A DNA stretch of 44,062 bases from a virus: positions 1-44,062 of the IMG/VR virus record IMGVR_UViG_3300027902_000014. One strand, given 5' to 3'. The notes under the pieces are model-generated. The model was not told the origin of the DNA. It saw nothing but the letters and a program-made list of their open reading frames with translations, and did not search any database. The translations under genes and the position numbers were made by a program. This document shows positions 8,721 through 36,683 of this stretch, one piece after another; position 1 is the stretch's first letter; each line of letters starts with the position of its first letter.

Positions 8721-9464
8721 TTACTCAACCAATGGGCTAATAAAATATCTAACCAATTCATAATCTGAATTGATAGCAACTAATTGAATAATTCTTGGGT
8801 GAATACTAAGGTTGTATGAACAACCATCAAACAAAAATCCAAAATTATCACGTTTTTCATCATGAATACTCAAAAGAACTTCAAAATCAGATTCAATACC
8901 TTTACTAATAAGTTCCTCTGAATATCTATGTGAATGATTGTTTCTATCACCTACTGTATAAGAAAGTTTGCCATCTTTTGCAGTCAACCTAAGGATGTTA
9001 GCACCAATGCTGGTAGATATTGATTTTACTTTTTTGATAAAAGCATTATTGATTTCAACTGTAGTAACAAAACCAGGATCTTTTTTAAGATTCGCTGGGC
9101 CTTCTTTGATAAGAGTCAAATCTGTTAAAATATAAGTAAGAGATGAAGAATTATTGTACTTGATAATCAGTACATTATCTTTGACTTCTATTTCAATAGT
9201 CGTAGCTTCAATTAAACCTAAAGCTGTAAGAAACTGTCCTAAATCAAAAATACCTAACTTTTCAATAGTTTCTACACCACTTGTAATCTGAATAGTTTTA
9301 TTTGTAAATTTGATATTTGCCATCTGACTTCCGTCTGCAGTTGCCGCATCCACTTTAAAAGTATCATTAACTTTTGTTAAAATAATACTATTGATAGAAG
9401 AACTTAATGCCTTTAGCGGAGCTACAAATTTCTTAAAATCCTTTATTACAATTTGACCTTTCAT
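8721..9464 (-). CDS. 45: DNA polymerase sliding clamp gp45
   Basis: 247 residues with the two-domain beta-rich pattern of T4-type clamps; T4 gp45 is 228. Evidence is the overall pattern (IILTKVNDTFKVDAATADGS, LGIFDLGQFLTALGLIE, DNVLIIKYN) together with the position between primase and nucleotide genes and its own promoter. It encircles DNA, tethers gp43 and, in T4, activates late transcription with gp55 and gp33, both of which also seem present. RBS TGGAGG. Confidence 0.8.
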   Translation of the reverse strand: MKGQIVIKDFKKFVAPLKALSSSINSIILTKVNDTFKVDAATADGSQMANIKFTNKTIQITSGVETIEKLGIFDLGQFLTALGLIEATTIEIEVKDNVLIIKYNNSSSLTYILTDLTLIKEGPANLKKDPGFVTTVEINNAFIKKVKSISTSIGANILRLTAKDGKLSYTVGDRNNHSHRYSEELISKGIESDFEVLLSIHDEKRDNFGFLFDGCSYNLSIHPRIIQLVAINSDYELVRYFISPLVE

Positions 9465-13070: not shown

Positions 13071-13914
13071 AAATATATTCCACTATTTTTTCAATCTCAT
13101 CATCATTTTTTACTATAACCCCTCCTGCATGTTTGTGACCCCCGCCCCCAAATTTTTCTAATGCTACACTCAAATCTAATTTACTATCTTTTTTAGACCT
13201 AAAACTCAATGCGCTATTTTTAGAATTATATACTATTACTAATTCCATATTATGTAAATTAATTATGAAATCTGCAACCTCATCAATATCTCCGCTTGTA
13301 GCTATAAATGCCACTTCATCTGCAATCTTTTCATATTTCAAATTTTTCAATAATATATCAATTTCTTTTTGTTTTGCTACTAAAAACCTTCTTTCAGCTT
13401 CTAAAAGAGTTCCATCATACCCATGACTAAAACGAATGAAAAAATCTTTGAACCAATAGAAAAAGAATAGACGATTTAAATGTTTTGAAGTCTTATACTG
13501 ATGAGTCCAAGTATCATAATCTTCTCCTAACATTTTTAATTTCTCTAATGATCTTGAAAATTTATAACCTTTACTTTCCAAATAATTATAAACTAAAGTA
13601 CAAGCAGCTCCTTCATTAGTTTTTAGTATTTGTTTCTGTATTCTTGAAGGAAACTTTCTTTCATGATGATCTATAATAAAAATATTTTTCTTAGTTTCAA
13701 TACTTGGTATAATATTTTCATCCTGTATTGATATATCTGTGATAAAGAAAAAATCTTTATCATTATAATAACGTTTAAAAACATCATCTACGTTACGATA
13801 AGTTACTGGTAACTTTTGGAAACCACAACCTTTACTGATAGCAAAATTATATAATAAAATAGCACATATAACTCCATCAGTATCTTTATGTGTTATATTA
13901 ATTATATTTGTCAT
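13057..13914 (-). CDS. DHH-family phosphoesterase
   Basis: 285 residues with the DHH metal motifs: HKDTDG (His9, Asp11, Asp13), FITDIS (Asp60) and IIDHHE (Asp82, His83, His84), then a DHHA1 domain ending in the substrate-binding GGGGHKHAGG. Family members are nano-RNases, RecJ-type exonucleases or cyclic-dinucleotide phosphodiesterases. At 285 residues it is nearest to the NrnA type, so degradation of short oligonucleotides or of a cyclic-dinucleotide signal is possible. The latter would matter for anti-defence, but the sequence does not decide it. Confidence 0.82.
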   Translation of the reverse strand: MTNIINITHKDTDGVICAILLYNFAISKGCGFQKLPVTYRNVDDVFKRYYNDKDFFFITDISIQDENIIPSIETKKNIFIIDHHERKFPSRIQKQILKTNEGAACTLVYNYLESKGYKFSRSLEKLKMLGEDYDTWTHQYKTSKHLNRLFFFYWFKDFFIRFSHGYDGTLLEAERRFLVAKQKEIDILLKNLKYEKIADEVAFIATSGDIDEVADFIINLHNMELVIVYNSKNSALSFRSKKDSKLDLSVALEKFGGGGHKHAGGVIVKNDDEIEKIVEYICELL

Positions 13915-14571
13915 GTTTACTCATTTTATGTATATTTAAAATAATTTTAGATATCTTTCTTCCTTTAATCCATCCACTTTTTATATAGTTATCTAAATCT
14001 ATTACATTAATTAGTGTTTCTTTTTGTAAACTAAAGTTACTTATCCAACAAAGGTTATAATTTTTTGGTTTACTACTTGATTCACTCATTTTCTTTTTAG
14101 TTTCTTCTGTATGTTTTTTACCTTCGAAACCACCTTTTCTACCTTTTAATGAATTACTTCTTTTTTCTAAAAATTCATTTATATTTTTCCCTCCCCATCC
14201 TCCTACTTGAATATTATATATTTTATCTTTTTTATTTTTTATAAAATCTATTGATAATATTTCTTTTTCCATTTTAGATAACTCTTCTATATTTTTACAG
14301 AAAAATAAAATCCTTCTATCAAAATTCTCTATACCATACTTTTTAATAGATCTTTTTAAATAACTTCCTGATCCTAAATATCCATCATTTAAATTATTAG
14401 TTTGATGCATACCTATATATAACTTTTATTAGTAATCAAATTTTTTGTTTCATAGATAAAATAATATGGTTTATTCTTTGGTAAATCTAAATCTATAGAC
14501 ATCCATTCTCTATATAAATCATTAAAATCAATTATTTTATCATCTATCTCTTTTTGATAGTTATATGTCAT
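13898..14571 (-). pseudogene. GIY-YIG homing endonuclease split by a frameshift
   Basis: Frame one starts at ATG 14571 (TAATG overlap with the mazG stop) and encodes 52 residues ending YYFIYETKNLITNKSYI, the GIY strand and start of YIG, before TAG at 14413. The second frame continues G-MHQTNNLNDGYLGSG and runs 170 residues to 13898 with the Arg/Lys helix (SIKKYGIENF), the Glu helix and a C-terminal GWIKGR tail. Removing one TA from the TATATATA run at about 14414-14421 joins them into a complete family member of about 224 residues. As written, the catalytic Tyr strand is cut off and the enzyme should be inactive. Confidence 0.82.
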
Positions 14572-19035: not shown

Positions 19036-19225
19036 TTTTCTCTTCTTTCTTAACAAATTCTGGCATCGGTTGAACTGCTATAATTTTAGATGCCATAAGT
19101 GTAGGATACATCAAACTACATAGAGGAAGAATAATACTACGTAATCTTTTCCTTGCCATTTCTCTTTCATATTTGAAATAAAATAGCATTATTATCAAAG
19201 AAAATAAAGCGATAAAATAGTACAT
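18977..19225 (-). CDS. Small membrane-anchored protein, 82 aa
   Basis: One N-terminal hydrophobic segment (YYFIALFSLIIMLFYF), a second weaker one around LPLCSLMYPTLM, and a Lys/Asn-rich tail. The start makes a TAATG overlap with the gene 43 stop, which supports translation. Unknown function. Confidence 0.6.
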   Translation of the reverse strand: MYYFIALFSLIIMLFYFKYEREMARKRLRSIILPLCSLMYPTLMASKIIAVQPMPEFVKKEEKNDKNRIINKKNRKINKTKE

Positions 19226-21768
19226 TAGAAAAATTCACTAATATTAGAAATATTAATGTCGATACGACCCCACTTCATTGCTTCTGTAATCTTATGCAAA
19301 GGACTCATAAAACTTTTTTCAAATTGAGTATCAAAATCAATATATTTATGAAGTCCAAATTCTTTTGGTAAGTTATCAATGAATCCAATAATATTTTCTG
19401 TATTAGTAGCATCTGTATTTAGATATATGAATTTCATTTTTGCTCCTGGTTTGATAAGTTCATAATCACGTTCTAATTTATATTTTTCAATTAACTTGTT
19501 ATAGTTTATTGCGGCTCTAACTTGAATTGGAGTACCTTTTACTAGTTGTCCATTTTCAATGTATTTAGCAACATCACTAACTCCACGTGGAAATGCTATA
19601 TTTTTCACATCTTCTGATTTAAATTTTTGATTAATATCTTTTAATAAATTATTTATCTGTTGTTTAGTAGAACCTTTAAATATTCCTTTTATTACATCTT
19701 TAATTCTTTCTCTACAAAATGAAGGAGTAGAACTCCTAACAATTTCAATACCTTTTACTTTTATCTTTGGTTCTTTATAAATGATTCCTTCCATATCAAT
19801 TACATTCAAAGCATAATGTTTCTTACCAGTAAAAATGGCACCATCCGTAATAGCTTCTCTTTTCAAATGTAACCAATTTATTTCATTATTTAAAAATTCA
19901 TTTGAAAACTTTCCTAATGTTTCTTGTAAGAATGGTTCATATATTTTCTTCCAAAATAAGTTTGCAGAAGCAATCACCTTGATATTATCATCAGGAATAT
20001 TGTATTTCTTAATAAAAGAATCTAAATTCATATAGATACTATCTGTATCTGCTGCAATTATTTGATCGCCTTCAGCTCCAAATTTTTCATGAAAAAGAAT
20101 ATTAGTTTGTTTAACTAAGTATTTTGTTAATTTTTGACCTGTTAAGGTAATAGCAGAAGCTAAATCTGGATCAAATAATCTAAAATTCTCATTCGCCAAA
20201 ATTCCATAAGCAGCGTTTGAAAGTATTTTTGTTGCATTTTGAAAAGCATCGTATTTCTTTGCTAAAATATCAAACGCCTTATCACCGGTTTCTTGAAACT
20301 TCTTCTCATTCTCCTTAGATAAGTTCTTAAATTCTTTTCTCTTAGCAAATATATTTTTTACTGCTTTTGGAATAAAACCTTCCGCTGATTTAAATAATAA
20401 ACCATTAGCTGAAAGAATTAACTTATTTTTCTTTATGAAAGCTTTAAGTTTTTCTCCAAGTACAGTCTTACCTAATAGTTCATACCAATCTTCATCAACC
20501 AAACTAGGAACATCTAAACAAGGATACATTAATCCATTATCTGCTAAATCCTTCTGCTTGTCTCCTGTCGTTAATCCTATTTTTCCTACAAAGGTTTCTG
20601 GTGAAAGATTAAGTGCGAACATCAAATGAGGATACAGCGATGTAAAATCTCCACTTATTAATCTACGGAAAAATCCTACTATTGTTTCTTTTACATAACC
20701 GCCAGGTATAGATTCTTTTTCTTTTCTAACAGCTGTAGGAAGAACAATATTTTCAGACTTCAATAAGGTCATTAGATAGTTTTCAAATTTTTTCATAGCA
20801 GAATCTACTCTATGAAAAGGAACTCTACTAAAATATGATTGAACTTGTGTTAAAGTTATGAAAGCAGATCTTTCATCAATTTCTTTTACAAGTCTTACAT
20901 CATGTACGTTATAATCAACAAATTTATTCCAATCATCTTTCCATAATTGACTCAAAGAGCCTTCATATTCTAATTTTCCATATCCTAGTATTGACTTTGC
21001 TACATAATCTAATTTATGAGACTCTCTCTCATTTTGAGTGTATTTACTATCAAGATCCATATAATCTAAAAGTGTAATACCACAGATAATGTAATCTTTG
21101 TAATCTTCAGATATTCTTTGTTCAACTTCATTAACTGGTGAATATTTTTTTAAAAAACCTTCACCAAAAAGCATAAAAGTTCTATCTAAAATATATGGAA
21201 TATCAAACCTATTAGAAAACCACCCAGTAATAATATCAGGATAATTACTTCTATGCCATTTGAAATACTGCTTTAGTAACTCTTTTTCATCATCACAATG
21301 ATGATATTCTATTTTTTCTTTACCAGTATAGTTTTTAGTTCCAAAGGTATGGTATATTTTTGTTTTAGAAGAATAAACTGTGATAAGAAGTATTTCATCT
21401 TTGATATTACCAGATTTAGGTTGCCCATCATCATGACTAACTTCTATATCAATAAAATGAATATTTAGTTCAGGAAGATTTGATAAAAGATCTTTGTCAT
21501 GATATTTATCAATCAAAAATCTACTATCGGGGGTAATATCACCTTCAAAAGATTCATAGTTTTTTGTATATTCTCTTTGTGCTCCATAATCAGAAAACTC
21601 TTTTCTTCTACAAGATTTACCGAACAGATCTTTAAATGATCCATTTTTATCTGGTATATAGCAGTAAGGAACATAAGGAACTTCTATTAATTGACGATTA
21701 CCTTCTTTATCATACTCCCATAAATAGATATGATTATTATGAAAGTTGTAGTAAATATTTGCAAACAA
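19225..21768 (-). CDS. 43: DNA polymerase gp43 (family B)
   Basis: 847 residues (T4: 898). Exonuclease motifs: IHFIDIEVSHDD (Exo I), NRFDIPYIL (Exo II), YNVHDVRLV (Exo III). Polymerase motifs: GDFTSLYPHLM (A), KILSNAAYGILAN (B), AADTDSIYMN (C) and KKHYALNV. The start is TTG at 21768 with AAAGGAG 9 bases upstream; the longer frame to 21828 would begin upstream of the predicted transcript start. Both proofreading and polymerase centres look intact. This enzyme would copy a template carrying 7-deazaguanine bases if the island at 24-32 kb is active. Confidence 0.96.
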   Translation of the reverse strand: MFANIYYNFHNNHIYLWEYDKEGNRQLIEVPYVPYCYIPDKNGSFKDLFGKSCRRKEFSDYGAQREYTKNYESFEGDITPDSRFLIDKYHDKDLLSNLPELNIHFIDIEVSHDDGQPKSGNIKDEILLITVYSSKTKIYHTFGTKNYTGKEKIEYHHCDDEKELLKQYFKWHRSNYPDIITGWFSNRFDIPYILDRTFMLFGEGFLKKYSPVNEVEQRISEDYKDYIICGITLLDYMDLDSKYTQNERESHKLDYVAKSILGYGKLEYEGSLSQLWKDDWNKFVDYNVHDVRLVKEIDERSAFITLTQVQSYFSRVPFHRVDSAMKKFENYLMTLLKSENIVLPTAVRKEKESIPGGYVKETIVGFFRRLISGDFTSLYPHLMFALNLSPETFVGKIGLTTGDKQKDLADNGLMYPCLDVPSLVDEDWYELLGKTVLGEKLKAFIKKNKLILSANGLLFKSAEGFIPKAVKNIFAKRKEFKNLSKENEKKFQETGDKAFDILAKKYDAFQNATKILSNAAYGILANENFRLFDPDLASAITLTGQKLTKYLVKQTNILFHEKFGAEGDQIIAADTDSIYMNLDSFIKKYNIPDDNIKVIASANLFWKKIYEPFLQETLGKFSNEFLNNEINWLHLKREAITDGAIFTGKKHYALNVIDMEGIIYKEPKIKVKGIEIVRSSTPSFCRERIKDVIKGIFKGSTKQQINNLLKDINQKFKSEDVKNIAFPRGVSDVAKYIENGQLVKGTPIQVRAAINYNKLIEKYKLERDYELIKPGAKMKFIYLNTDATNTENIIGFIDNLPKEFGLHKYIDFDTQFEKSFMSPLHKITEAMKWGRIDINISNISEFF

Positions 21769-21801
21769 TAAAAATTCTCCTTTTATTAATTTTATTGGGA
21801 T

Positions 21802-21829
21802 TATATAAGAAATAACTAGAAGAATCAAA
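21802..21829 (-). promoter_or_regulatory. Putative middle promoter before gene 43
   Basis: Minus strand TAAAAATTTGAT: TTTGAT (21824-21829), 16 bases, TATATA then AT (21802-21807). The upstream gene's TAA stop is the start of the A-run. Predicted start near 21795, about 27 bases before the TTG of gene 43. Confidence 0.65.
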
Positions 21830-22157: not shown

Positions 22158-22880
22158 TTATCTCCTTAATTGATCATCAGTATATTCTGTCAATTTAGAC
22201 CAATTATAATTAAATACTTCATCTGCAAAACCATAGTTAACAGCTTGTTCTGATGTTAAATAAACCTCTTCTTTTTTATCCATTTGCTTTCTAAGCCATT
22301 GATGAACATATTTTTTACTTTTTCCTTTCAACATTCCTTGTTTCTTCATTGATTCATAATAAATGTCCATCATTATTTCTCTTGCTTTTTTGTTAAAACT
22401 AACAAAAGATTCAACTGATTTAACAGTACCTGAAACTCCTAATTCACCATCATGAAACATAAAATAACTATGGTCCATCATAACTCTTTTGTTTGCAGCC
22501 TGTAATATTAAAGATGACATTGATCTGGCATGGGTATAGTTTAAAATAGTTACCGGGGAAGGGCAAGATTTAATAGCGTCATAAATCGCCATTCCTTCAC
22601 TCCAATCACCACCACAAGTTTTCATATGAATTAATATAGGAACTTCTGGATTAGCTCTCATACAAAGATTTATGTTTCTAATAAATCTATTTGAGATAAT
22701 ATACTCCACACCTGGTTCATTTCCTGTTTCTTCTAATGTTCCTGTTGCATATGTTTCTGAACCAAATAGATAAATATGATTAGAAGTAATATCTAAATCA
22801 TTATCATGAATTTGCAAAATCAAGTCAGAAGATTTGATTTTAAGTTTATGGTCTAAACGATATTTTATTTCTTCGATCAT
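22158..22880 (-). CDS. ClpP-like serine protease
   Basis: 240 residues. The ClpP/crotonase-fold blocks are present: HMKTCGGDWSEGMAIYDAI (oxyanion loop), ARSMSSLILQAA with nucleophile Ser120, and YFMFHDGELG with His143. The third triad acid is not at a clean Asp; an acidic stretch before VYLTSEQAVNYGFADEVF is the likely site. A 30-residue N-terminal extension exceeds the normal ClpP length. Phage ClpP-like enzymes are usually prohead proteases next to capsid genes; here it sits among replication and modification genes, so it might work with a host ATPase on host or phage regulators. Confidence 0.8.
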   Translation of the reverse strand: MIEEIKYRLDHKLKIKSSDLILQIHDNDLDITSNHIYLFGSETYATGTLEETGNEPGVEYIISNRFIRNINLCMRANPEVPILIHMKTCGGDWSEGMAIYDAIKSCPSPVTILNYTHARSMSSLILQAANKRVMMDHSYFMFHDGELGVSGTVKSVESFVSFNKKAREIMMDIYYESMKKQGMLKGKSKKYVHQWLRKQMDKKEEVYLTSEQAVNYGFADEVFNYNWSKLTEYTDDQLRR

Positions 22881-23191: not shown

Positions 23192-23442
23192 AATTGATCA
23201 CAAACTTGAAATTTAGCAAACTTCTCCCTATCTCTAAATGCCCAATTTGGGGAGCCATGAACTCCAAAAGATTCACCTTTATGATTTTTACATCCTTGAT
23301 TTGAACAATACCACCAGTAATCATCATTTGGATGTAAATCTACCATTTCATCATTTACACAACAATCTATAATTGGCCATCCACAATCAATACAAAATAC
23401 ATCATCTACAATTTTGGCAGTATTTAATCTTTTAGCTATCAT
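23188..23442 (-). CDS. Cys-rich zinc-finger protein, 84 aa
   Basis: Cysteine-rich: FCIDCGWPIIDCC and WYCSNQGCKNHKGES, giving two probable zinc sites, followed by aromatic and charged residues (NWAFRDREKFAKFQ). Not recognised. Its ATG overlaps the stop of the membrane/HTH protein (ATGA). Confidence 0.65.
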   Translation of the reverse strand: MIAKRLNTAKIVDDVFCIDCGWPIIDCCVNDEMVDLHPNDDYWWYCSNQGCKNHKGESFGVHGSPNWAFRDREKFAKFQVCDQL

Positions 23443-24368
23443 ATAAATTCCTTAAAAGGGTCTATAATTTCTTCTTTTGGTTTTCTTCTCTTCTTTTTCT
23501 TTTTAATAACTATAAGTTCCTCTTCCTCTTTTGGTTTTTCTTTTAAACCTTTCAATTTTATTTTCTTAGAAATTCTACTGAGTTGACCATTTATAACTTG
23601 TTCACTTGTGCCAAGAAATTTTGCCATCTCTTCAACATCAGTTGTAACATTTTCTCTTGTCATCAATATTACTTTTTGTTTCAAAGACAAACTTGACATT
23701 CTCTTTATTTGATTAGAAACTGCAACAAATATTCCTGTTTTCTGAATCATCATTCCTGCAGAAAAGAATAAAAATGAAGGGGCAAATACAGCAGCTAAAG
23801 ATATGAAAATAGAAAATATTAGAATAGCTACTTTATCAGTAACATGAAGAATAGAACTGATTACTTCAATTATTGAATGTAATTCTAATGTGGTTGATTC
23901 AGTTCTTTTATCTGTTTTATCTTGTTGTTTTTGAAGCTGACCAATAATTTTTGAAATATTTTTTGATGAAACTTCATCTCTGTTACCTAACTTTTCTACT
24001 ACATTTGCTATAACTTCTTCTGACTTAGAACTTTTACTTGATAAATTTTTATTTATGGACTGTTGTTCCAAAACAACATAAGATCTTTTGGCATACATAG
24101 ATGTAACTGTAATGAGTGAAACTCCAAACAATATAACAAGGAACAAAAGTGTAATAACTCTATGTATCCTAGTTATTTTTACACCTAACAAAAATGAAGA
24201 AATAACAGCCAGAGGCTCTATTGTTAATGCTCCAAACTTAGATATCCCTAATTGATCTAAAAATTGTCCTTGAATACCTGTAACCCATACAACAATACAT
24301 GTTCCAAGTGTTAAACATATTATCATAATCAATATGTTCAAAAAGGTTTCTATTTTATTTTTATTCAA
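23439..24368 (-). CDS. Membrane protein with C-terminal HTH-like domain, 309 aa
   Basis: Three N-terminal hydrophobic segments within the first 90 residues (FLNILIMIICLTLGTCIVVW, LAVISSFLLGV, VITLLFLVILFGVSLI). A soluble Ser/Lys/Gln-rich coiled stretch (about 105-165) follows, then a further segment AILIFSIFISLAAVFAPSFLF. The C-terminal domain (LSLKQKVILMTRENVTTDVEEMAKFLGTSE ... described by position about 225-270) reads like a winged or sigma-4-type HTH, and a poly-Lys/Arg/Glu tail ends it. The start was set at TTG 24368 (GGAG 6 bases upstream) rather than the GTG at 24380 without RBS. Its RBS lies inside the 40-bp repeat at the end of dpdA. Function unknown; possibly a membrane-tethered regulator. 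Confidence 0.65.
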   Translation of the reverse strand: MNKNKIETFLNILIMIICLTLGTCIVVWVTGIQGQFLDQLGISKFGALTIEPLAVISSFLLGVKITRIHRVITLLFLVILFGVSLITVTSMYAKRSYVVLEQQSINKNLSSKSSKSEEVIANVVEKLGNRDEVSSKNISKIIGQLQKQQDKTDKRTESTTLELHSIIEVISSILHVTDKVAILIFSIFISLAAVFAPSFLFFSAGMMIQKTGIFVAVSNQIKRMSSLSLKQKVILMTRENVTTDVEEMAKFLGTSEQVINGQLSRISKKIKLKGLKEKPKEEEELIVIKKKKKRRKPKEEIIDPFKEFI

Positions 24369-25605
24369 AGAACTCTCCACTATTAGCTACTTTTGTATTA
24401 TCAGGAGTTTCTTCTATAATATGTTCCTCTGGAGTTCTACTATCATAATCAAAGAACTCTCCACTATTAGCTACTTTTGTATTATCAGAGAATCTTGTTC
24501 CTGAAATTTGAATTTGTTCAACTGGATTTTTAACATCAAATGCTTGTCTAATAACTTTTAAATTTTTAACAATACTATTTGGAAAAAGGTTATAAATTAG
24601 TTCATCATTATTTGTATCAATAATTCTTTTAACTATTTCAATATAGTTCTTAAAGAATAATATATTATGTAATGTAAGATGTGCATATGCTCTTGAATTC
24701 CAAACAAATATATCATTCGTAGTTAAATTTTTACATACATCACAAGTACATGGTAGTTTAGCTTTTATACTAAAATTTGGAGTCTCCCCCTCTTTAATTC
24801 TAAATTTATTGGTATAAGAAATACACTTAAAACTTTCAAAATCATGACTTATATAATACCCACCAAAGGCAGAGTTTTTAGAAGGAGAACTTGAATCTGA
24901 TGTTAATATAATTTTGATTCCTTTTAGCCTTTCCAATAAGCTACAAAAATAAACCAAATAAATGAACATATTTGGTTTTGATGTGCCAAATAAATGAAAT
25001 AATTTATTTGACTTCTTCCCCATTTCACCTTTCATATATAAAAAGAATAAAGCCTGCAGTGATAATGAAGGATCAGCCCCAATTGAACCAATTGCCCATC
25101 CATCAAATTCAAAACCTTTTACTTTATCATACCATTTATTCCAATTCCCTATATTTCTTCCATGAAGAACATTTAAATACTTTGTTTTACCTGAACGATA
25201 TTCATCAAAATATTTAAAATTATTATAACTTAATTGTAATGATTCATCAAATACTGAATCAGAAGATCCTTTCAGACTTGAAACGTATGGAGGTATATCA
25301 AGATTTGCCGAAATGTTTGTATTATTTTCTAAGAACTCAAATATCTTTCGCCTATTCTCTTCTGTATTTTCAAGTTTCTTTACTGCAATTTGAAATCCAC
25401 CAGAATCACCAAAATAAATTCCTTTAGAAAAATTGAATCCCATTTTTTGAGCAAAATCTGGAACATCCATAAGATGACCTGCAGAAAATAATATATATGG
25501 ATGATAAAAAGAAGATTCATCTTTATTATAAAATCTAAAATCCGTATTTTTTAATAAACTTAGAGCTGTTGCCCCCACAGATAAAGCCGGAATATAAATA
25601 ACCAT
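24361..25605 (-). CDS. dpdA: DpdA-type DNA guanine transglycosylase (TGT family)
   Basis: 414 residues of the tRNA-guanine-transglycosylase fold. Catalytic and binding residues are in place: GDSGGFQ (Asp67), NLDIPP (Asp103), VLHG (His149), WAIGSIG, and ILTSDSSSP with the probable nucleophile Asp237. The zinc site is CTCDVC plus HNILFF (Cys286, Cys288, Cys291, His313). TGT enzymes swap guanine for a 7-deazaguanine base; phage DpdA relatives do so in DNA. Clustering with QueC, QueE, QueD and FolE in a phage without any queuosine-tRNA need argues for DNA. The C-terminus carries a duplicated SDNTKVANSGEFF motif. TAATG overlap with the Gat-QueC stop. Confidence 0.85.
   Translation of the reverse strand: MVIYIPALSVGATALSLLKNTDFRFYNKDESSFYHPYILFSAGHLMDVPDFAQKMGFNFSKGIYFGDSGGFQIAVKKLENTEENRRKIFEFLENNTNISANLDIPPYVSSLKGSSDSVFDESLQLSYNNFKYFDEYRSGKTKYLNVLHGRNIGNWNKWYDKVKGFEFDGWAIGSIGADPSLSLQALFFLYMKGEMGKKSNKLFHLFGTSKPNMFIYLVYFCSLLERLKGIKIILTSDSSSPSKNSAFGGYYISHDFESFKCISYTNKFRIKEGETPNFSIKAKLPCTCDVCKNLTTNDIFVWNSRAYAHLTLHNILFFKNYIEIVKRIIDTNNDELIYNLFPNSIVKNLKVIRQAFDVKNPVEQIQISGTRFSDNTKVANSGEFFDYDSRTPEEHIIEETPDNTKVANSGEFFE
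24365..24488 (-). repeat. Two 40-bp perfect direct repeats at the dpdA 3' end
   Basis: Copies at 24365-24404 and 24449-24488, 84 bases apart, encode DNTKVANSGEFF twice, separated by an acidic spacer. The promoter-distal copy also contains the dpdA stop and the ribosome site of the next gene. The in-frame period (28 codons) suggests a recent duplication. Confidence 0.9.
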
Positions 25606-27077
25606 TAAATAATTTCTTCCTTTCTATATTTCACAAAAGTATCTTTTACTCCTATTTTCTGAAATGCAATTTTTCTCAAGTTACATGAACTACACTCTCC
25701 ACAATGTTCTTCATAATTATGATAACAAGACCACATTAGATGTAATGGAGCTCCTATACTAATAGCAATTTGAACAATTTCATGTTTCATATAATTCGCC
25801 AAAGTTTTTTCTAACTTTATTGATGTTCCATTCTGTGTGGCATAAGGTATTACACTTTCTAACTTATTCAAAAATTCTATGGTATTATCCGGATATGCTG
25901 AAGCTTCATCCAAATTAGCTCCCATATAAATTTTAGAATATTCAAACTTTTCAGCATAACCAATTGCAAGACTGGTAAGAATCAAATTTCTTGCTGGTAT
26001 CCATTCTAAAGCATATTCAATTCCTTGACTTCCTTTTGATATTTGATTATCATCTCCAGATGTCAAAGGTGATACCAAAATATCTTTGAAAATACTTAAT
26101 GGAATAAAAACATATTTACAATGGAAAAATTCAGCTATATCTTTTACTGCCTTCATTTCTTTTTCTTGTGACAAACCACCATATTGAAAATATAATAGAG
26201 TAATTTCTTCCATTTTTTGTGCAGCAATAGTTGTCACAACTGTAGAATCTAATCCACCAGAACAAAGTATGAGAGATTTATTATTCTTAGGTTTATTGAA
26301 TGATGTTATGTTTGTTATACCTTTTTTAATATCTTCCCATGACATATTCACATTTAGTACTAAATATGAATATGGAGTGAAATCAATAATATTATAATCT
26401 ATAATGTATTTATCTTCCACCAAACTCATTAAAGTTTCTTTTTCTGATGCAAACCAAAGTATTTCATTAGTATAATCAAGCATCAAATAAAGAGGCATAT
26501 AATTCTTAAAAAATACTATATCACCAGAATGTTTAAAATATTGTACACAAGCAAAACTACCAATAATTTTCTTTTCTTTTAATGCCTCTATTAAATCTTT
26601 AACAGTTTTAAAATTTAAAAAAATTGCACTATCAATTTTAATATCTGTTTCTTGATATATCCAGTTTGATACTGACCAATTTTTCTCACCTATTACCATA
26701 TTATTAAACGTTTTATTAAAATCTTTATCGTTTGATATGGTTCCGTTATGAATTATAGTAGAATCTTCACTAGAAAAAGGTTGGGTATCATTAGGAGTCT
26801 TATCTTTTATCCATTCAGAATTAGAGGTTGGTTCAGCCCTCATATTATTCATTAATAGAAATTCTATACCTGTATCAATATAAATATCTTGGAATATTTT
26901 TTCATCTACTTTATCAACAAACTTCGTTAATGTTTCAAAATTAGTAAGTAATTTTTTATAATAAAATCCAAAACTATCTCTACCTCTATTTCTGGCAGAG
27001 TTTAAGAATCTTTCTAACCTAATATGTTTTATTTTTTCTTGTTTACCTGTACAAATAAAACCATTTATACTGCACAT
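25605..27077 (-). CDS. Glutamine amidotransferase-QueC fusion (7-cyano-7-deazaguanine synthase)
   Basis: 490 residues in two parts. Residues 1-250 are a class II (Ntn) glutamine amidotransferase: Cys2 directly after Met, RGRDSFGF (31-38), MRAEPTSNSEW (79-89) and IIHNGTIS (108-115). Residues 265-490 are QueC: PP-loop LCSGGLDST (271-279), MGANLDEASAYPD, and the zinc site Cys451, Cys459, Cys462, Cys465 (CYHNYEEHCGECSSC). QueC turns 7-carboxy-7-deazaguanine into preQ0. The fused amidotransferase could supply ammonia, or use the nitrile or amide to give an amidated or amidino base. Such Gat-QueC fusions are known from phages with 7-deazaguanine DNA. Overlaps the methyltransferase gene by 13 bases. 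Confidence 0.88.
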   Translation of the reverse strand: MCSINGFICTGKQEKIKHIRLERFLNSARNRGRDSFGFYYKKLLTNFETLTKFVDKVDEKIFQDIYIDTGIEFLLMNNMRAEPTSNSEWIKDKTPNDTQPFSSEDSTIIHNGTISNDKDFNKTFNNMVIGEKNWSVSNWIYQETDIKIDSAIFLNFKTVKDLIEALKEKKIIGSFACVQYFKHSGDIVFFKNYMPLYLMLDYTNEILWFASEKETLMSLVEDKYIIDYNIIDFTPYSYLVLNVNMSWEDIKKGITNITSFNKPKNNKSLILCSGGLDSTVVTTIAAQKMEEITLLYFQYGGLSQEKEMKAVKDIAEFFHCKYVFIPLSIFKDILVSPLTSGDDNQISKGSQGIEYALEWIPARNLILTSLAIGYAEKFEYSKIYMGANLDEASAYPDNTIEFLNKLESVIPYATQNGTSIKLEKTLANYMKHEIVQIAISIGAPLHLMWSCYHNYEEHCGECSSCNLRKIAFQKIGVKDTFVKYRKEEII

Positions 27078-27802
27078 AAGTACTCCTCAATTTGTTTAAA
27101 TAGAAGAAAACTTCTATACTCGGTTATTCTAAAATACTTACTACCATCAACATCTAATCTGATTGCACATTCGATTTCATCATTTGTCAAAAAATTCATA
27201 GGAGATACAAAACGGTTACGTAACATTTCTTTGAAAACATCACTTCTGATATTTTTATTATAACTTAGGAAATATAAATCATCAAGTTTATAACCATGAT
27301 GTTTAAATATTGTTAACATTTGTTGATAAGATACTGTTTTCTCTGTTTCTAATAATTTTGGGAATAGTTTAATTATTGTTGTATTTTCCAAATTATCAAA
27401 ATCAGTTGTCATAATTAAAACATTTTTAGCAATAGTATTTAAATCATCAAGTACAGAATGTAAATTAACCCCACCATCTGAAATCAAATGTATAGAAGAA
27501 GAAAAAATTGCAAGATCATACTGTTCTGTGTTTATTTCTGCAAAATGAAAGAAATCTGTATTATAAAAAATACCAATTTTATGATCTATTTGATTGTACA
27601 TCTCTTTACTTTGCTCAACTCCAGACAAGTTACTATACCCCATGTCTTTTAATTTTTTTAATACTCCACCTGAACCACAACCAAAGTCAATTATTTTAAT
27701 ATTTTTTGGAAACTCACTTACCATATCACAGATAATATTATGACCATATCTAAAGTATTCGTTGTACTTTTGTGCTAATACTTGATTGTTAAATGACTTC
27801 AT
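27065..27802 (-). CDS. SAM-dependent methyltransferase (class I)
   Basis: 245 residues. Motif I is IIDFGCGSGGVLKKL, followed by a GVEQSKEMYN segment (acidic ribose-binding position) and LAIFSSSIHLI (motif IV region). This layout suits small-molecule or nucleoside methylation rather than the DPPY-type DNA amino-methyltransferases. It overlaps both neighbours inside the 7-deazaguanine operon (TAATG upstream, 13-base overlap downstream), so it is a good candidate for methylating a deazapurine precursor or the modified nucleotide. The substrate is inferred only from context. Confidence 0.75.
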   Translation of the reverse strand: MKSFNNQVLAQKYNEYFRYGHNIICDMVSEFPKNIKIIDFGCGSGGVLKKLKDMGYSNLSGVEQSKEMYNQIDHKIGIFYNTDFFHFAEINTEQYDLAIFSSSIHLISDGGVNLHSVLDDLNTIAKNVLIMTTDFDNLENTTIIKLFPKLLETEKTVSYQQMLTIFKHHGYKLDDLYFLSYNKNIRSDVFKEMLRNRFVSPMNFLTNDEIECAIRLDVDGSKYFRITEYRSFLLFKQIEEYLCAV

Positions 27803-28743
27803 TAAATGGTCTCCTTTATAATTTCACCCGTTTTCATATTCATATTTATACAATCTTCATCTTTTAAAGCCGTCATAATACCTTTTACACCAATAATACA
27901 AGGAATACCCATTTGCATAGCAACTATGGCGGCATGGCTTGTAACACCACCTTCCTCGCTGGCAAATGCGATAATTGATTTAGCAAAATACTCCACTAAT
28001 TCAGGTCTACAGTTGGGTACAATGATTATTTTACCATTTACATCTTTCTTTGAAAATTCACCAAGTAGTACTACTTTACCTAAAATGAATTCTTGATTTT
28101 TTGAGTTAATAGGTCTACCAATTAATTCAGTTTCTGTTGGCTGTTCAAAATTTCCAATAAAAGGAGAGTTTAATTCAATTTCTTTTATTATTACTTCTTT
28201 CTTTTTATTATTGTATAGTATACGAATACCACCTTCTGATGTCAAATTTTTCTTCTTATATTCTTTCTCCCACTTAAATCTTGTCAATAATCTTAAGAAA
28301 CCTATATAATCAATCAAAGAAATCTTCTTCAAATCTTTATTAACCAGGAATTTCTTTTTTGTTAAAAGTTTAATTTCAATATTCGAGAAAGCTTTCTTAA
28401 GTAAGTATTCCTTTTTCATTTTAAATTTATATGGTGCTACACAACCTTGGGTCAAAAAATATAATTCCAATATTTTGGTTATTTTATTTGATTTTCTAAA
28501 CTTCAAAAAATCAAATAATTTTTTATTATTATAAAGTTTCTTTCCTAACTTCCCAAGATTTTTTTCAGTTTGTTCAGAGTGATAAAAAGTGGTTACATTA
28601 TTTTTTGTTACAAATAGTATATCTAAATTGCATTCAACAAATTTATTTTCTTTGATCATAGAAATAGTATTTTCAATTTGAGTTTTATTCAATCCTTCTT
28701 GTTCCCATTGTTTAATCCAGTTTATCACATGATTCTTTTTCAT
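27802..28743 (-). CDS. PEP-utilizing-type phosphohistidine (swivel) domain protein
   Basis: 313 residues. The C-terminal 110 residues match the mobile phosphohistidine domain of PEP synthase and rifampicin phosphotransferase: FASEEGGVTSHAAIVAMQMG with the phosphorylatable His in TSHAA, then IPCIIGVKGI and MNMKTGEIIKE. The N-terminal 200 residues are Lys-rich and not recognised; an ATP-grasp domain, normally the partner, is not evident. The gene opens the segment methyltransferase, Gat-QueC, DpdA, all with overlapping ends. It may carry a phosphoryl group to a base or nucleotide during hypermodification, or serve as a separate regulatory phosphotransferase. Confidence 0.7.
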   Translation of the reverse strand: MKKNHVINWIKQWEQEGLNKTQIENTISMIKENKFVECNLDILFVTKNNVTTFYHSEQTEKNLGKLGKKLYNNKKLFDFLKFRKSNKITKILELYFLTQGCVAPYKFKMKKEYLLKKAFSNIEIKLLTKKKFLVNKDLKKISLIDYIGFLRLLTRFKWEKEYKKKNLTSEGGIRILYNNKKKEVIIKEIELNSPFIGNFEQPTETELIGRPINSKNQEFILGKVVLLGEFSKKDVNGKIIIVPNCRPELVEYFAKSIIAFASEEGGVTSHAAIVAMQMGIPCIIGVKGIMTALKDEDCINMNMKTGEIIKETI

Positions 28744-28759
28744 AACCCATCCTTTAAGT

Positions 28760-28796
28760 AAAAAATAAGGGGTGCGATATTGTTCGCACCCCTTTC
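28760..28796 (-). terminator. Strong rho-independent terminator after the 66-aa gene
   Basis: An 11-bp stem, AAGGGGTGCGA with TCGCACCCCTT (28767-28777 and 28784-28794) around a 6-base loop, followed on the minus strand by ATTTTTT. It is GC-rich for this genome. It would stop transcripts from the promoter at 29057-29085 and much of the read-through from folE. Confidence 0.88.
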
Positions 28797-28798
28797 CT

Positions 28799-28819
28799 CT
28801 TGGTTACCGTTAAACCAAG
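28799..28819 (-). other. Second hairpin at the 3' end of the 66-aa gene
   Basis: A 7-bp inverted repeat CTTGGTT/AACCAAG overlaps the stop codon, just upstream of the terminator. It could protect the short mRNA from 3' exonucleases or help termination. Confidence 0.55.
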
Positions 28820-29010
28820 GAATACTTATTTTCGTTCTTTGCAATCTTTGAACCAGCTACCATTGCCTTTAGTACTTTCTTTATTGCACGACCTCTGGTT
28901 TCAACCTTTCGATTGAACCGGTCATCCTTCTCTGCCATGGTAATTAACTCTTCTTCTGTCACTGCACCTGTTGCTAATTTTTCACTTACAAACTCCTGGT
29001 ACTTTTTCAT
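28810..29010 (-). CDS. Basic small protein in a one-gene cassette, 66 aa
   Basis: Begins MKKYQEFVSEKLATGAVTEE and continues with charged helices (AEKDDRFNRKVETRGRAIKK) and ends KNENKYSLV. No family recognised. The gene has features of high expression: a consensus-like sigma70 promoter, AGGAGGAGG ribosome site, higher GC than its neighbours, and its own terminator. It resembles an early host-takeover or DNA-associated protein in layout, inserted between folE and the swivel-domain gene. Its function is open. Confidence 0.75.
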   Translation of the reverse strand: MKKYQEFVSEKLATGAVTEEELITMAEKDDRFNRKVETRGRAIKKVLKAMVAGSKIAKNENKYSLV

Positions 29011-29056
29011 TCTTATCCTCCTCCTAGATTAAACTACATTAATAAAATTATGCCTT

Positions 29057-29085
29057 ATTATATGTTAAATTGTTATAAAGGTCAA
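29057..29085 (-). promoter_or_regulatory. Sigma70-like (early-type) promoter for the 66-aa gene
   Basis: Minus strand TTGACC (29080-29085), exactly 17 bases, TATAAT (29057-29062). The first 12 bases TTGACCTTTATA equal those of the promoter at 940-968. The leader to the ATG is about 40 bases. Confidence 0.8.
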
Positions 29086-29094
29086 GAATATAAC

Positions 29095-29144
29095 AAACAA
29101 TTACTTCTTTAATGAAATCAAACAATTACTTCTTTAATGAAATC
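29095..29144 (-). repeat. 25-bp perfect tandem duplication at the folE 3' end
   Basis: Two adjacent identical 25-bp units (29095-29119, 29120-29144). The inner unit encodes the folE C-terminus and stop; the outer one is untranslated. This may mark the joint where the promoter/66-aa gene cassette was inserted. Confidence 0.88.
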
Positions 29145-30013
29145 CAATTTATAAACTCAGTCTTTACCGAGATATCCTTAAAAATACCCCTCAACGCGCA
29201 AGTATCTGCATAAGTCTCGGTTTGTTCCACTCCTCTTACTGACATACAAAGGTGTTGTGCTGTTATATATACACCCAATCCTTTGGGTTGAAGTTTATTC
29301 TCTATGTAGTCCGCGATTTGCTCCGTTAGTTCTTCTTGAATTTGAGGCCGTCTCATATACCAATTTAATATCCTTGCAAATTTACTAAGTCCTACTAAAC
29401 TACCGGCAGGAATATAACCTATATACGCATGTCCAATAAAAGGAACTATATGATGACTACAAGTGGATTTTACATCAAGTGGGCCTACTACAACCATTTG
29501 ATTTACATTATTTACATTAGGGAAAGTTGTAATTTCTGGTTCTGCAGTATAACATCCTTTGAATAATTCTCTAACATACATCTTTGCAACTCTTTTAGGA
29601 GTATCTTGAATATTATGATTTTCCATATCAAAGTGCATAATTTCCAAGATTTCTCTATATTTTTCTTCAATTTTACTTTGCATATAACTAATTTCCATCT
29701 CTGAAAGCTGGTAATTTCCATTAGGTGGAATTTCTGCTTCTATCTCATTATCAAATCTAGAACTTTCTCTTTCAAAAGGTATCTTTTCAGTATTTAACAT
29801 TAGGAGTTTCCATTCATTAATTTGTTGAATCAAATCATATACAAACTTACCTGTTAAATTACTATCATGTGCTTGATTGATTTTTAATTCTATATCTTTA
29901 TAATATGTTATAGGTAATTTTTGATTATTGTAATAAAAATTACATAATTTACCATTATCTGCAAACTTTGCTGTAACTCCTGTAGCTTCTACAATCGTTG
30001 AAAGATCTATCAT
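29126..30013 (-). CDS. folE: GTP cyclohydrolase I (FolE) with N-terminal extension
   Basis: 295 residues. The FolE catalytic domain runs from about 108 to the end: zinc ligands Cys185 and His188 in STCSHHIVPF, Cys256 in AQHLCMSVRGV, plus GHAYIGYIP and LSKFARIL. It opens GTP to dihydroneopterin triphosphate, the first step to 7-deazaguanine. Usual length is near 200-220, so about 100 residues are added at the N-terminus; this part is not recognised (TIVEATGVTAKFADNGKL). The start at 30013 has GAGGAG 6 bases upstream and lies just within the queE stop region; an in-frame codon at 30055 is less likely. Confidence 0.93.
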   Translation of the reverse strand: MIDLSTIVEATGVTAKFADNGKLCNFYYNNQKLPITYYKDIELKINQAHDSNLTGKFVYDLIQQINEWKLLMLNTEKIPFERESSRFDNEIEAEIPPNGNYQLSEMEISYMQSKIEEKYREILEIMHFDMENHNIQDTPKRVAKMYVRELFKGCYTAEPEITTFPNVNNVNQMVVVGPLDVKSTCSHHIVPFIGHAYIGYIPAGSLVGLSKFARILNWYMRRPQIQEELTEQIADYIENKLQPKGLGVYITAQHLCMSVRGVEQTETYADTCALRGIFKDISVKTEFINWISLKK

Positions 30014-30014
30014 A

Positions 30015-30773
30015 CTAAACTCCTCTTTTCTTATCCCAAAGAAGTATGTGAACACGTGGACTAAAACTTAAATTGAATCTAATACAAAAATCCATGGTAC
30101 TTTGAAAATTAGCAACATGTTCTTCTCTCGTAATACATTCGGGCATTACGTAAAAATCTGCCCATCTTAATTCTGGATACTTCATAATTTCACAAGATTT
30201 CTTAATAAAATCTAATATCTCAACTCTAGTCTCTGAAAGTCTATCATCTACAAATTTAATTATATAGAAACAAGTTGAATTTTCCAACTTTTTAATATTA
30301 TCAAGAACAATATCATTATATTCATTAAACTGAAGTTTTGGTGAAATATTGTATTGAAATAAGCGGTCATAAGCAGACCATATGATAAATTCTTCTGTGA
30401 GTGGAATTGACCCATTTGTTTCCATTTCATAAGTATTTGCATTTGTTTCTGAATATGTTCTAATTCTGGCTGCTTCAATACATTCTACAATTTCTTTAAC
30501 TTGTTCTTGATAAAGTGTAGGTTCACCACCAGTAAATACTATATTTCTAGATTCATCATGTAAAAGAATAAGTCTATATTTCTCTACAAAATCTTTTGCT
30601 GAATTAAACTCTTCTCTAAGTTCTTTAGATCCTTCCCATGTAAATTTTGAATCACAAAAATTACAATGAAAATTGCACCCAGAGAATCTTATAAAAGTTG
30701 AAACCTTACCAACTGTACTTCCTTCCCCTTGAATCGAAATAAATGGGGGTTCTGCTAAAATAATTTTACTCAT
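30015..30773 (-). CDS. queE: 7-carboxy-7-deazaguanine synthase QueE (radical SAM)
   Basis: 252 residues. The iron-sulfur motif is Cys33, Cys37, Cys40 (SGCNFHCNFCDSKFTW), the CxxxCxxC of QueE. IQGEGSTVG (14-22) is its N-terminal signature and FTGGEPTLYQ binds SAM. It contracts 6-carboxytetrahydropterin to the deazapurine ring. Overlaps the zinc protein upstream (ATGAGTAA). Confidence 0.92.
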   Translation of the reverse strand: MSKIILAEPPFISIQGEGSTVGKVSTFIRFSGCNFHCNFCDSKFTWEGSKELREEFNSAKDFVEKYRLILLHDESRNIVFTGGEPTLYQEQVKEIVECIEAARIRTYSETNANTYEMETNGSIPLTEEFIIWSAYDRLFQYNISPKLQFNEYNDIVLDNIKKLENSTCFYIIKFVDDRLSETRVEILDFIKKSCEIMKYPELRWADFYVMPECITREEHVANFQSTMDFCIRFNLSFSPRVHILLWDKKRGV

Positions 30774-31185
30774 TATTATTTCCTTCTTTTAATTCTATTT
30801 CAGATACTTCCACTTTGGGAGATTCTTCCTTCTTTTCTTCTATCACTTTCTTTTCTTCTGCCATTTTCTTTTTGTATTTTGCTTTTATCGCACATTGACA
30901 AGCCACTGGTTGCCAATGATTTGCAATTCCTTTATATCCTCTTCCATAACATTTACTACATTTAGGGTTAGCTAACTCCTCTAATTCTTTTAAAAGTTTT
31001 TGTAGTTCTTCTTCTTTCTTCAGTTGTAGTTCTTCTTTTGCTAACTCATTTATCTTTTCTGGATCTAAATCTTTATCCGCAACTTCAACTGGTTCTTCAA
31101 TAGCTATTTGAACTTGTCCTACTGGTTCTTCTGCAATTATCTGAACTTGTCCTACATGACTTTCTATTTTTTCTTGAGTTGCCAT
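30766..31185 (-). CDS. DnaJ-type zinc-finger coiled protein, 139 aa
   Basis: A charged Glu/Lys-rich protein with a zinc motif in the middle, KCSKCYGRGYKG ... ACQCAIK, like the CxxCxGxG repeats of DnaJ. Two short repeats, EEPVGQVQI and IEEPVEV, lie near the start. Lies between queD and queE with coupled starts, so it may belong to the modification operon, but no enzyme motif is visible. RBS AGGAGG. Confidence 0.65.
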   Translation of the reverse strand: MATQEKIESHVGQVQIIAEEPVGQVQIAIEEPVEVADKDLDPEKINELAKEELQLKKEEELQKLLKELEELANPKCSKCYGRGYKGIANHWQPVACQCAIKAKYKKKMAEEKKVIEEKKEESPKVEVSEIELKEGNNNE

Positions 31186-31194
31186 TAACTCCTC

Positions 31195-31413
31195 CTATAA
31201 ATTATCAAACTCATCTAAAAGTTGTCCTCTTTTATCTTTAAACTCTTTCAAAATTTTTTCTTTAATTTCTTTTTTAGTTTCTTCTGAAATGTTCTCTTCA
31301 AAAATATGTGAAAAAACATTATTTTCTTTGACAGATAGAAGATGTATCTGTCTTTCTATGTTTGATAACAAATTTCTAATTTCATTTGCTCTAATAAAAT
31401 CTTGTGTTTTCAT
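31195..31413 (-). CDS. Helical hypothetical protein, 72 aa
   Basis: A small amphipathic-helix protein (MKTQDFIRANEIRNLLSNIE ...) with a Lys/Glu-rich end. The ATG at 31413 forms an ATGA overlap with the queD stop. Not recognised. Confidence 0.6.
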   Translation of the reverse strand: MKTQDFIRANEIRNLLSNIERQIHLLSVKENNVFSHIFEENISEETKKEIKEKILKEFKDKRGQLLDEFDNL

Positions 31414-31856
31414 TCTGTATATTCCGCCCAACCTGTTTCTGTCTCATGAAATCTTACAGTTAGATTAGCGTAATATGCATTCTTCCAATTTTTATCTATA
31501 GCTCTTCTAATTTGTTTACAAATGAATTTCGCCATATTTTCTGCTGTTGGATTGGAAGGGAAAAGCATTAACTTCTTATTATGCTTTTCTAATGCTTCAA
31601 AGTAATCATAATGTTTTTGTAACATTGATAGAGGCATAATCAAAGCATGATCAAATTGATCAATAATTTCAGTAACATAAGATTTGATTTCACCAAAATC
31701 AATTATCATACCATCACTATTCAATCTATTTGATTGAATCAAAAGTTCAATTACAGCAGAATGACCATGTATTGTTTCATAACAGGCAGAAGAAAAAGCG
31801 GTTTCTAATTGATGAGCATATTCTGCTTTGAATTTTTTTCTTATAGTGAAAGGCAT
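31410..31856 (-). CDS. queD: 6-carboxy-5,6,7,8-tetrahydropterin synthase QueD
   Basis: 148 residues of the PTPS/QueD fold. Zinc histidines are His15 (AEYAHQL), His30 and His32 (IHGHSA); Cys25 is the catalytic cysteine. GMIIDFGEIK, FDHALIM (catalytic Asp-His) and NPTAENMAKF complete the family pattern, with a final VRFHETETGWAEY. It converts the FolE product to 6-carboxytetrahydropterin. First recognised gene of the modification operon behind the promoter at 32092-32119. Confidence 0.93.
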   Translation of the reverse strand: MPFTIRKKFKAEYAHQLETAFSSACYETIHGHSAVIELLIQSNRLNSDGMIIDFGEIKSYVTEIIDQFDHALIMPLSMLQKHYDYFEALEKHNKKLMLFPSNPTAENMAKFICKQIRRAIDKNWKNAYYANLTVRFHETETGWAEYTE

Positions 31857-31862
31857 ATTTTA

Positions 31863-32060
31863 TTACTCCTGTTGTGCCCAGATATCTTCTGGTATCTCCA
31901 AATTTATATCTAGTTTTAAAGCGATATTGAGTGCAGCTCTTTTTGCATTCTTTTTAGTGGAATAGGCTTTACTATTACGAATTATTGCATTTTCATTTAA
32001 TGCTATTCGGTAGGACCACGTTCCAAAACTTTCACTTATAACACATTCATATCTTTCCAT
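31863..32060 (-). CDS. Small protein, YegP/DUF1508-like, 65 aa
   Basis: The pattern SESFGTWSYRIALNENAIIR, then SKAYSTKKNAKRAALNIA, resembles the short DUF1508 repeat (strand-strand-Y.S...A helix). No function is known. First gene after the promoter at 32092-32119; AGGAGG precedes the ATG. Confidence 0.6.
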   Translation of the reverse strand: MERYECVISESFGTWSYRIALNENAIIRNSKAYSTKKNAKRAALNIALKLDINLEIPEDIWAQQE

Positions 32061-32091
32061 TTCTTATATTCCTCCTTTAATTTTTAATCAG

Positions 32092-32119
32092 TATATAGAG
32101 TATTTAATCGGAAATCAAT
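32092..32119 (-). promoter_or_regulatory. Putative middle promoter before the queD operon
   Basis: Minus strand AAAATTGAT: ATTGAT (32114-32119), 16 bases, TATATA then CTG (32092-32097). One base off the TTTGAT of the other members. Predicted start near 32085, 25 bases before the first ATG. Confidence 0.55.
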
Positions 32120-35906: not shown

Positions 35907-36683
35907 TTAATAATCCCCTGATTTCAATTTTGTTCTCATCTCTGCTAATTCTTTTTGAAAACGATATAAATGCAGTCCTGATGAATAGGCATACATCTTT
36001 CCTACTGGAACACCAATATACTCTGATACTGTTTCTTGCAATCTTGACATTCCATAAAGATTTGCAGGCATACCACCATACAAATCCCAACTACGAAAAT
36101 ATACATGCATATCAAGTTTTGAAAGTACTTTATCTAAATGAGTTTCAATATATTTTCCATTAACATAATTTTCAATATACATTGGAATAACTTTAAAATC
36201 TACAAGTCTAGCACAAGGTGGATCAAGTTTTCCATCATTACCAATACATTTGAATGTATCTTCTGGTTGTGCAATTTCAATTACTGCCTGGTTGGTGATT
36301 GGAGTTTTAAGTAGCATATCCATCACATATTGCAATGAAACATTCAATCTAGAACCATATGTGTATGTTTCATTTTCTTTCAATTCAGTACCAAAAATAT
36401 AATGTTGAAAGTATTCTTCTGCTTCTTCAATTCCTACAGGTGCAGGAACATTTGATCCTTCTGGAATTGTAACAATACGATCAAATAAAGGATATTCAAT
36501 ACAAACATTATAAGATGGGAACTGAAGCCTGGATTGTTCATTCATAAAACTACCTTGTTGAATCATCCCTGTTGGATAAGCATAAATGAACTTACCATTT
36601 TCATCTACATCCAAAATATGATACAAGGTTTGAAACCAAGCATCATCAATTGTTTTAGCATTCAAGGAAAATTGATTATTCAA
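35907..36683 (-). CDS. Thymidylate-synthase-family enzyme
   Basis: 258 residues, ThyA size. PPCARLVDFKV holds the catalytic cysteine (Cys157), but the His that normally follows (PCH) is Ala. VYFRSWDLYGGMPANLYGM matches the RS.D..G.P.N block (Arg197, Asn208) and GLHLY the ending HxY (His238, Tyr240). Asn208 at the position that reads the pyrimidine favours dUMP over dCMP, so dTMP synthesis is likelier than dCMP hydroxymethylation. The missing His and divergent N-terminus leave a specialised pyrimidine activity possible. The start is TTG with GGAG 7 bases upstream. Confidence 0.75.
   Translation of the reverse strand: MNNQFSLNAKTIDDAWFQTLYHILDVDENGKFIYAYPTGMIQQGSFMNEQSRLQFPSYNVCIEYPLFDRIVTIPEGSNVPAPVGIEEAEEYFQHYIFGTELKENETYTYGSRLNVSLQYVMDMLLKTPITNQAVIEIAQPEDTFKCIGNDGKLDPPCARLVDFKVIPMYIENYVNGKYIETHLDKVLSKLDMHVYFRSWDLYGGMPANLYGMSRLQETVSEYIGVPVGKMYAYSSGLHLYRFQKELAEMRTKLKSGDY

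Follow-up and report, generated by a model that had tools for sequence, protein, structure and literature searches.

A 7-deazaguanine pathway in a T4-like phage fragment and a candidate clamp-tethering tail on its DpdA-type transglycosylase

A fragment of a T4-like phage encodes the enzymes for building a 7-deazaguanine base from GTP along with a predicted DpdA-type DNA guanine transglycosylase, which carries at its C-terminus a tail resembling the one on the DNA polymerase of the phage itself. The fragment, referred to here as the window, spans 44,062 bases and is an IMG/VR virus record in its entirety; homologues of gp43, gp44, gp62, gp45, gp46 and gp55 are found in it, and nearly all of its genes are carried on the minus strand. 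The explanation favoured here, which as a whole is considered rather probable, combines synthesis of the base, its exchange into DNA and tethering of the exchanging enzyme. FolE, QueD, QueE and Gat-QueC would build the 7-deazaguanine base from GTP, the DpdA-type transglycosylase would swap it for guanine in the phage's own DNA, and the C-terminal peptide of DpdA would tether the enzyme to the gp45-type sliding clamp, where it would act on newly made duplex DNA behind the fork. Those genes that adjoin dpdA would then constitute a variable slot, occupied by glycosyltransferase-like genes in most relatives and by a methyltransferase and a swivel protein here. The TGT family works on tRNA, and in the literature searched there is no explanation of how a TGT-type enzyme reaches guanines genome-wide. 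Bearing a clamp motif of the polymerase type, the DpdA family described here represents a new form, and the presence of such a motif makes that reach, and the mechanism proposed for it, directly and cheaply testable.

Synthesis of the 7-deazaguanine base

The original prediction was that a GTP-to-DNA 7-deazaguanine pathway lies in one strand-uniform block, and all the genes that it named are indeed found on the minus strand at 23439-32060. In order of transcription, the block comprises a 65-aa ORF, QueD, a 78-aa ORF, a 139-aa zinc-finger-like protein, QueE, FolE, a 66-aa ORF, a swivel protein, a methyltransferase, Gat-QueC, the DpdA-type protein and a membrane/HTH protein. Those assigned to synthesis of the base, together with the zinc-finger-like protein, are the following.

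31410..31856, minus strand: QueD (6-carboxytetrahydropterin synthase); PF01242 E 5.5e-25, TIGR03367 E 3.9e-21
30766..31185, minus strand: 139-aa protein with a CxxC...CxC zinc-finger-like motif (CSKCYGRG)
30015..30773, minus strand: QueE (7-carboxy-7-deazaguanine synthase, radical SAM); phrog_2076 E 2.5e-39, TIGR03963 E 3e-23
29126..30055, minus strand: FolE (GTP cyclohydrolase I); PF01227 E 8.8e-55 over residues 129-305
25605..27077, minus strand: Gat-QueC (glutamine amidotransferase fused to preQ0 synthase); phrog_10428 E 6.5e-92 over the whole length

Sequence comparison places these enzymes in their families, and the catalytic residues said to be visible in each are present in Gat-QueC, QueE, FolE, QueD and DpdA, as is the motif of the swivel protein. 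QueD carries the motifs YAHQ, SSACYE, HGHS, DHAL and HETE with its H/H/H/C catalytic set, the CX3CX2C of QueE is located at residue 33, FolE has its CSHH/C residues, and Gat-QueC keeps the Ntn Gat Cys2, the P-loop SGGLDS and the Zn cysteines. The latter protein, with the GATase at its N-terminus and a QueC part matched by PF06508 (E 6e-52), is 33% identical over its full length to the Gat-QueC of phage 9g. With FolE, QueD, QueE and Gat-QueC all encoded in the window, and with family matches, catalytic residues and the likeness to 9g in agreement, the predicted pathway is well supported: judged from its sequences, it is real and of a kind already known. Apart from these assignments, FolE bears an N-terminal extension of ~120 aa without a family match, and the 139-aa zinc-finger-like protein has no convincing match among Pfam and PHROGs families. 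We also considered, and rejected, a defence function for the membrane/HTH and QueC proteins, the KwaA and QatC matches being far below the NCBIfam cut-offs.

The dG+ pathway of 9g (Enterobacteria phage, Queuovirinae) is likewise composed of FolE, QueD, QueE, a Gat-QueC fusion and a TGT-family DNA transglycosylase; unlike 9g, the window has a non-9g-type DpdA, a T4-type replisome and extra swivel and methyltransferase genes. The DNA of 9g carries dG+, and its Gat-QueC and DpdA together insert dG+ into plasmid DNA (PMC6884629). Since the Gat-QueC of the window resembles that of 9g, the likeliest product here, by analogy, is predicted to be the archaeosine base (dG+), or else the amide/nitrile precursors of it. 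QueF did not turn up in the 44-kb record, which is a fragment, and QueF or further genes may lie beyond it. A pathway that serves to boost queuosine precursors for host tRNA, instead of modifying DNA, is very improbable: Hutinet et al. propose such a role for phages without DpdA, whereas the window does encode a DpdA family protein, one that is syntenic with the replisome in its relatives and bears a polymerase-type clamp motif, and 9g Gat-QueC fails to complement Q synthesis. We infer that the 7-deazaguanine chemistry takes place in DNA.

The DpdA-type transglycosylase and its polymerase-like tail

The features on which the proposed base exchange and tethering depend are listed below.

24361..25605, minus strand: DpdA-type DNA guanine transglycosylase (predicted), with a low-confidence (disordered) C-terminal tail; TgtA TIGR00432 E 6e-9
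24449..24487, minus strand: first copy of the DpdA tail motif, ...DNTKVANSGEFF-D, from sequence inspection
24365..24403, minus strand: second copy of the DpdA tail motif, ...DNTKVANSGEFF-E, clamp-interacting-peptide-like and matching the polymerase C-terminus
19225..21828, minus strand: T4-type DNA polymerase (gp43-like), C-terminus SNISEFF; phrog_262 E 6e-221
8721..9464, minus strand: T4-type sliding clamp (gp45-like), the presumed tether partner; phrog_223 (DNA polymerase processivity factor) E 8e-16

Detection of the transglycosylase by sequence is marginal (TGT PF01702 E 4e-5, below the Pfam cut-off), and the family has no clear PHROGs match. Its AF2 model (pTM 0.80) has the TGT fold on structure comparison, matching Zymomonas TGT (Foldseek E 1e-9, prob 1.0) as well as the DpdA2 of Vibrio phage nt-1 (E 3e-9). 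In an alignment of nine family members, Asp67 and Asp237 are invariant, and the zinc site CxCxxC...H is kept in the window protein and lost in several relatives. Similarity to the 9g enzyme, of the DpdA1 type, is not evident (hhalign probability 4.7%), whereas nt-1 DpdA2 is recovered at an hhalign probability of 93% (E 4e-7), with E 0.03 in the genome profile search and ~21% identity. The phage nt-1 is comparable to the window in being T4-like and in having preQ0 genes around a TGT-fold enzyme; it differs in that the QueC gene beside dpdA2 is short (717 nt) and lacks the Gat fusion, and in that the DpdA2 tail is without the FF motif. On these comparisons, the window family is apparently a separate branch, remotely related to DpdA2; it has no characterised member, and its activity on DNA is predicted. 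As for DpdA3, which we take to be the Campylobacter phage type, Campylobacter phage CP220 gave no match in a search with the A2 and A4 profiles.

Relatives of the window DpdA amount to 326 matches in IMG/VR, from aquatic T4-like phages, found with a three-member alignment as query; the best 80 of the 326, which are 30-36% identical, were studied. In these loci dpdA sits within the replisome block, accompanied by the clamp in 78 of 80 (median gap 13 nt), the clamp loader in 76 of 80 and the polymerase in 50 of 80, while FolE and QueE occur within 10 kb in 28 of 80 and 24 of 80, respectively.

The window DpdA tail contains SGEFF twice and ends in VANSGEFFE, and the window polymerase carries ISEFF (end SNISEFF). 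The two copies in DpdA are the 39-nt core of a perfect 40-nt direct repeat with a period of 84 (window 24365-24487). In the alignment of nine, the sole invariant residue far downstream of the Asp237 region is Phe385, where the low-confidence tail begins, and its surroundings are the poorly conserved C-terminal part of the protein. The C-terminal peptide of DpdA is short and hydrophobic/acidic, resembles that of the cognate polymerase and follows a divergent linker. Most relatives, and likewise the polymerases adjoining them, end in ..FFxF. Within the related loci, which are redundant and come from related phages, and the tail counts of which overstate independence, FF is found in the last 10 residues of 66 of the 80 DpdA proteins as against 22 of 1260 other ORFs, and in the last 12 residues of 50 of the 52 polymerases. 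When the DpdA proteins are clustered, 6 of 7 clusters at 60% identity and 14 of 16 at 90% retain an [FLY]F pair. The exceptions are one of the seven clusters (9 loci), which is without the tail, and the relative with the closest polymerase (L093), the DpdA of which has EELF in place of FF. The shared tail was also recovered by a motif-free test, in which the last 12 residues of DpdA were compared with those of all plus-strand proteins encoded at that locus: the polymerase tail resembles that of DpdA most closely in 36 of 50 contigs, where 3.3 are expected, and in the window it ranks first of 61 proteins, with a score of 25 vs 16.

In T4, the polymerase C-terminal peptide SLDFLF occupies the sliding clamp pocket (PMC12746103). 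The epitopes by which gp43, gp55 and gp33 bind the clamp lie at their C-termini and can be exchanged for one another, and in gp55 a divergent linker precedes the epitope (PMC2988020). Among the enzymes that modify T4 DNA, the alpha-glucosyltransferase is recovered together with gp45 on purification (PMC13216743) and thereby offers a likeness for the window DpdA, for which clamp binding is predicted; it differs in acting on 5-hydroxymethylcytosine and in being a sugar transferase, not a base exchanger. Because the DpdA tail is polymerase-like, T4 C-termini bind the clamp and the glucosyltransferase accompanies gp45, tethering of DpdA to the clamp is the most economical reading of the sequences and of the T4 analogy. 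Base swapping would probably proceed at or behind the replication fork, since DpdA ends in the polymerase's clamp-holding tag. In the literature search, which covered titles, abstracts and word counts, no paper visibly linked DpdA to the sliding clamp.

A different ending is seen in the 9g-type DpdA1 proteins (L013-L092), of which 38 of 51 full-length cases terminate in [QR]xLF, an ending present in 39 of 1881 ORFs in DpdA1 loci, the DpdA1 proteins themselves included. In 9g, the DpdA1 gene precedes the phage clamp gene. The [QR]xLF end resembles bacterial clamp binders; it departs from a perfect QLxLF, and is not shared by the polymerase of 9g. It is possible, from these sequences, that clamp tethering arose separately in DpdA1 proteins.

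The dpdA-adjacent slot and the extra genes of the window

In 70 of the 80 DpdA-family loci (L093-L172), dpdA is adjoined, at a median gap of 7 nt, by a gene called glycosyltransferase-like on a weak PF00534 (Glycos_transf_1) match at or below cut-off, and in some relatives the slot holds radical SAM, aminotransferase or sugar-type dehydrogenase genes. Since the slot in relatives holds other modification-type genes, a variable tailoring slot beside dpdA is plausible on gene content. The pairing of DpdA with a glycosyltransferase-like gene suggests possible sugar-bearing 7-deazaguanines in phage DNA, of which no report was found in the literature searched. A cytidylyltransferase, found in 17 of the 80 loci, and sugar-type dehydrogenases, found in L122, hint at such a base as well; in L094, L096, L097, L099 and L100, a class-V aminotransferase-like gene lies beside stand-alone QueC and DpdA. 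The window carries the following genes in and around this slot.

27802..28743, minus strand: phosphohistidine-swivel protein (PEP-utiliser mobile domain, residues 236-306); PF00391 E 1.1e-17
27065..27802, minus strand: class I SAM-dependent methyltransferase (DFGCGSGG motif I); PF13489 (Methyltransf_23) E 2.1e-7
23439..24380, minus strand: membrane protein with a weak C-terminal HTH and tail ...IIDPFKEFI; sub-threshold sigma-70 region 4 and KwaA matches only

The membrane/HTH gene is present in the block as foreseen, although the name given to its product derives from sub-threshold matches (sigma70 region 4, Pfam E 0.075). The listed GTG start of this gene falls inside the second copy of the dpdA tail repeat. 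The swivel protein (313 aa) has a TSHAA phospho-histidine motif with His270, preceded by a 220-aa N-terminal region without a recognised fold; its swivel domain matches the C-domains of PEP synthase and pyruvate kinase in the PDB, and the single-sequence AF2 model has a pLDDT of 32. Family searches gave no match to an ATP-binding (PPDK_N / ATP-grasp) domain in the 313 residues, and the protein accordingly shows the swivel domain and phospho-His of the PPDK family without its ATP-binding domain. With a single-sequence query, no relatives of the swivel protein were found in viral or genome contigs, and a DNA pattern search for the swivel motif returned one ordinary PPDK-like protein and otherwise chance matches. 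AgnD1, of agrocin 84 biosynthesis (pAgK84), is similarly small (292 aa) and likewise carries its PEP-utiliser swivel domain at the C-terminus; the similarity is limited to that domain (28% over 81 residues), the N-terminal region being not alignable. The product of the agrocin 84 cluster is an N-phosphoramidate nucleotide (PMC6429109). A profile containing AgnD1 yielded swivel-domain matches only, mostly in proteins of ~750-860 aa, as expected for PEP synthases. An unusual array was seen in a Candidatus Aminicenantes locus (L190), where at least four proteins, each 441-500 aa long and encoded in a cluster, bear a C-terminal swivel domain, none of them similar to the N-terminal part of the phage swivel protein.

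The swivel, methyltransferase and membrane/HTH proteins had been put forward as tailoring the base, which is a possible role. Homologues of the three were found in none of the 80 Gat-QueC loci and none of the 80 DpdA-family loci, those of the methyltransferase in no phages or IMG/VR viral contigs, and PF00391 did not rise above cut-off in 50 whole records. By the refuting condition set out with the original prediction, related phages keeping dpdA/queC and always lacking the extra genes, this absence disfavours an integral role for them. The same absence fits an ordinary 9g-like dG+ phage, with the known pathway, an untethered post-replicative DpdA and the extra genes as unrelated cargo in a dense region, and T4-like phages do bear much lineage-specific cargo; this is conceivable, if somewhat doubtful, as it leaves the polymerase-like DpdA tail unaccounted for. 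Gene overlap speaks on both sides of the question. Overlaps of 1-13 nt join the swivel, methyltransferase, gat-queC and dpdA genes in series, which runs counter to unrelated cargo and upholds locally the claim of an operon fused by overlapping stops and starts. That claim does not extend over the block, where gaps of 66 and 115 nt separate the swivel gene, the 66-aa ORF and folE. Moreover, overlap is weak evidence for common function because 25 of the 61 neighbouring pairs in the window (41%) overlap, and the operon argument from overlaps was rejected on this ground.

A tailored base, for which the methyltransferase and/or the swivel protein would modify the 7-deazaguanine before or after insertion to give a methylated or further substituted derivative, is compatible with clamp tethering and was judged apart from it. 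It is rather unlikely. The direct overlaps with gat-queC and the modification-type genes in the slot of relatives point towards it, and methylated 7-deazaguanines are known in phages, mdPreQ1 reportedly having been described by Cui et al. in 2023. However, neither enzyme has a homologue in the ~160 related loci, the swivel protein is without a recognisable ATP-binding domain, and the mdPreQ1 route needs both preQ1, with QueF not seen in the record, and DpdM, the methyltransferase fold of which is unrelated to that of the window enzyme. A particular form of tailoring, in which the swivel phospho-His would pass a phosphoryl group to the amide/amidine N of 7-deazaguanine and the methyltransferase would cap it, is highly improbable; glutamine kinase, which transfers a phosphoryl group to the glutamine amide, serves as its model, and if true it would imply a phage DNA base of the phosphoramidate type.

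Several other genes of the window are recorded here in their own right. Two proteins lie among the replication genes, at 13898-14410 and 10540-11178; the first is a homing endonuclease (phrog_314 E 2e-25), and the second is of the GIY-YIG type by eye, with PHROG matches of unknown function only. A ClpP-like protease (22158-22880; PF00574 E 2e-20) is encoded between the polymerase and the 7-deazaguanine block, and a divergent thymidylate synthase-like protein of 258 aa (35907-36683; PF00303 E 1.8e-7) is possibly a pyrimidine-modifying relative.
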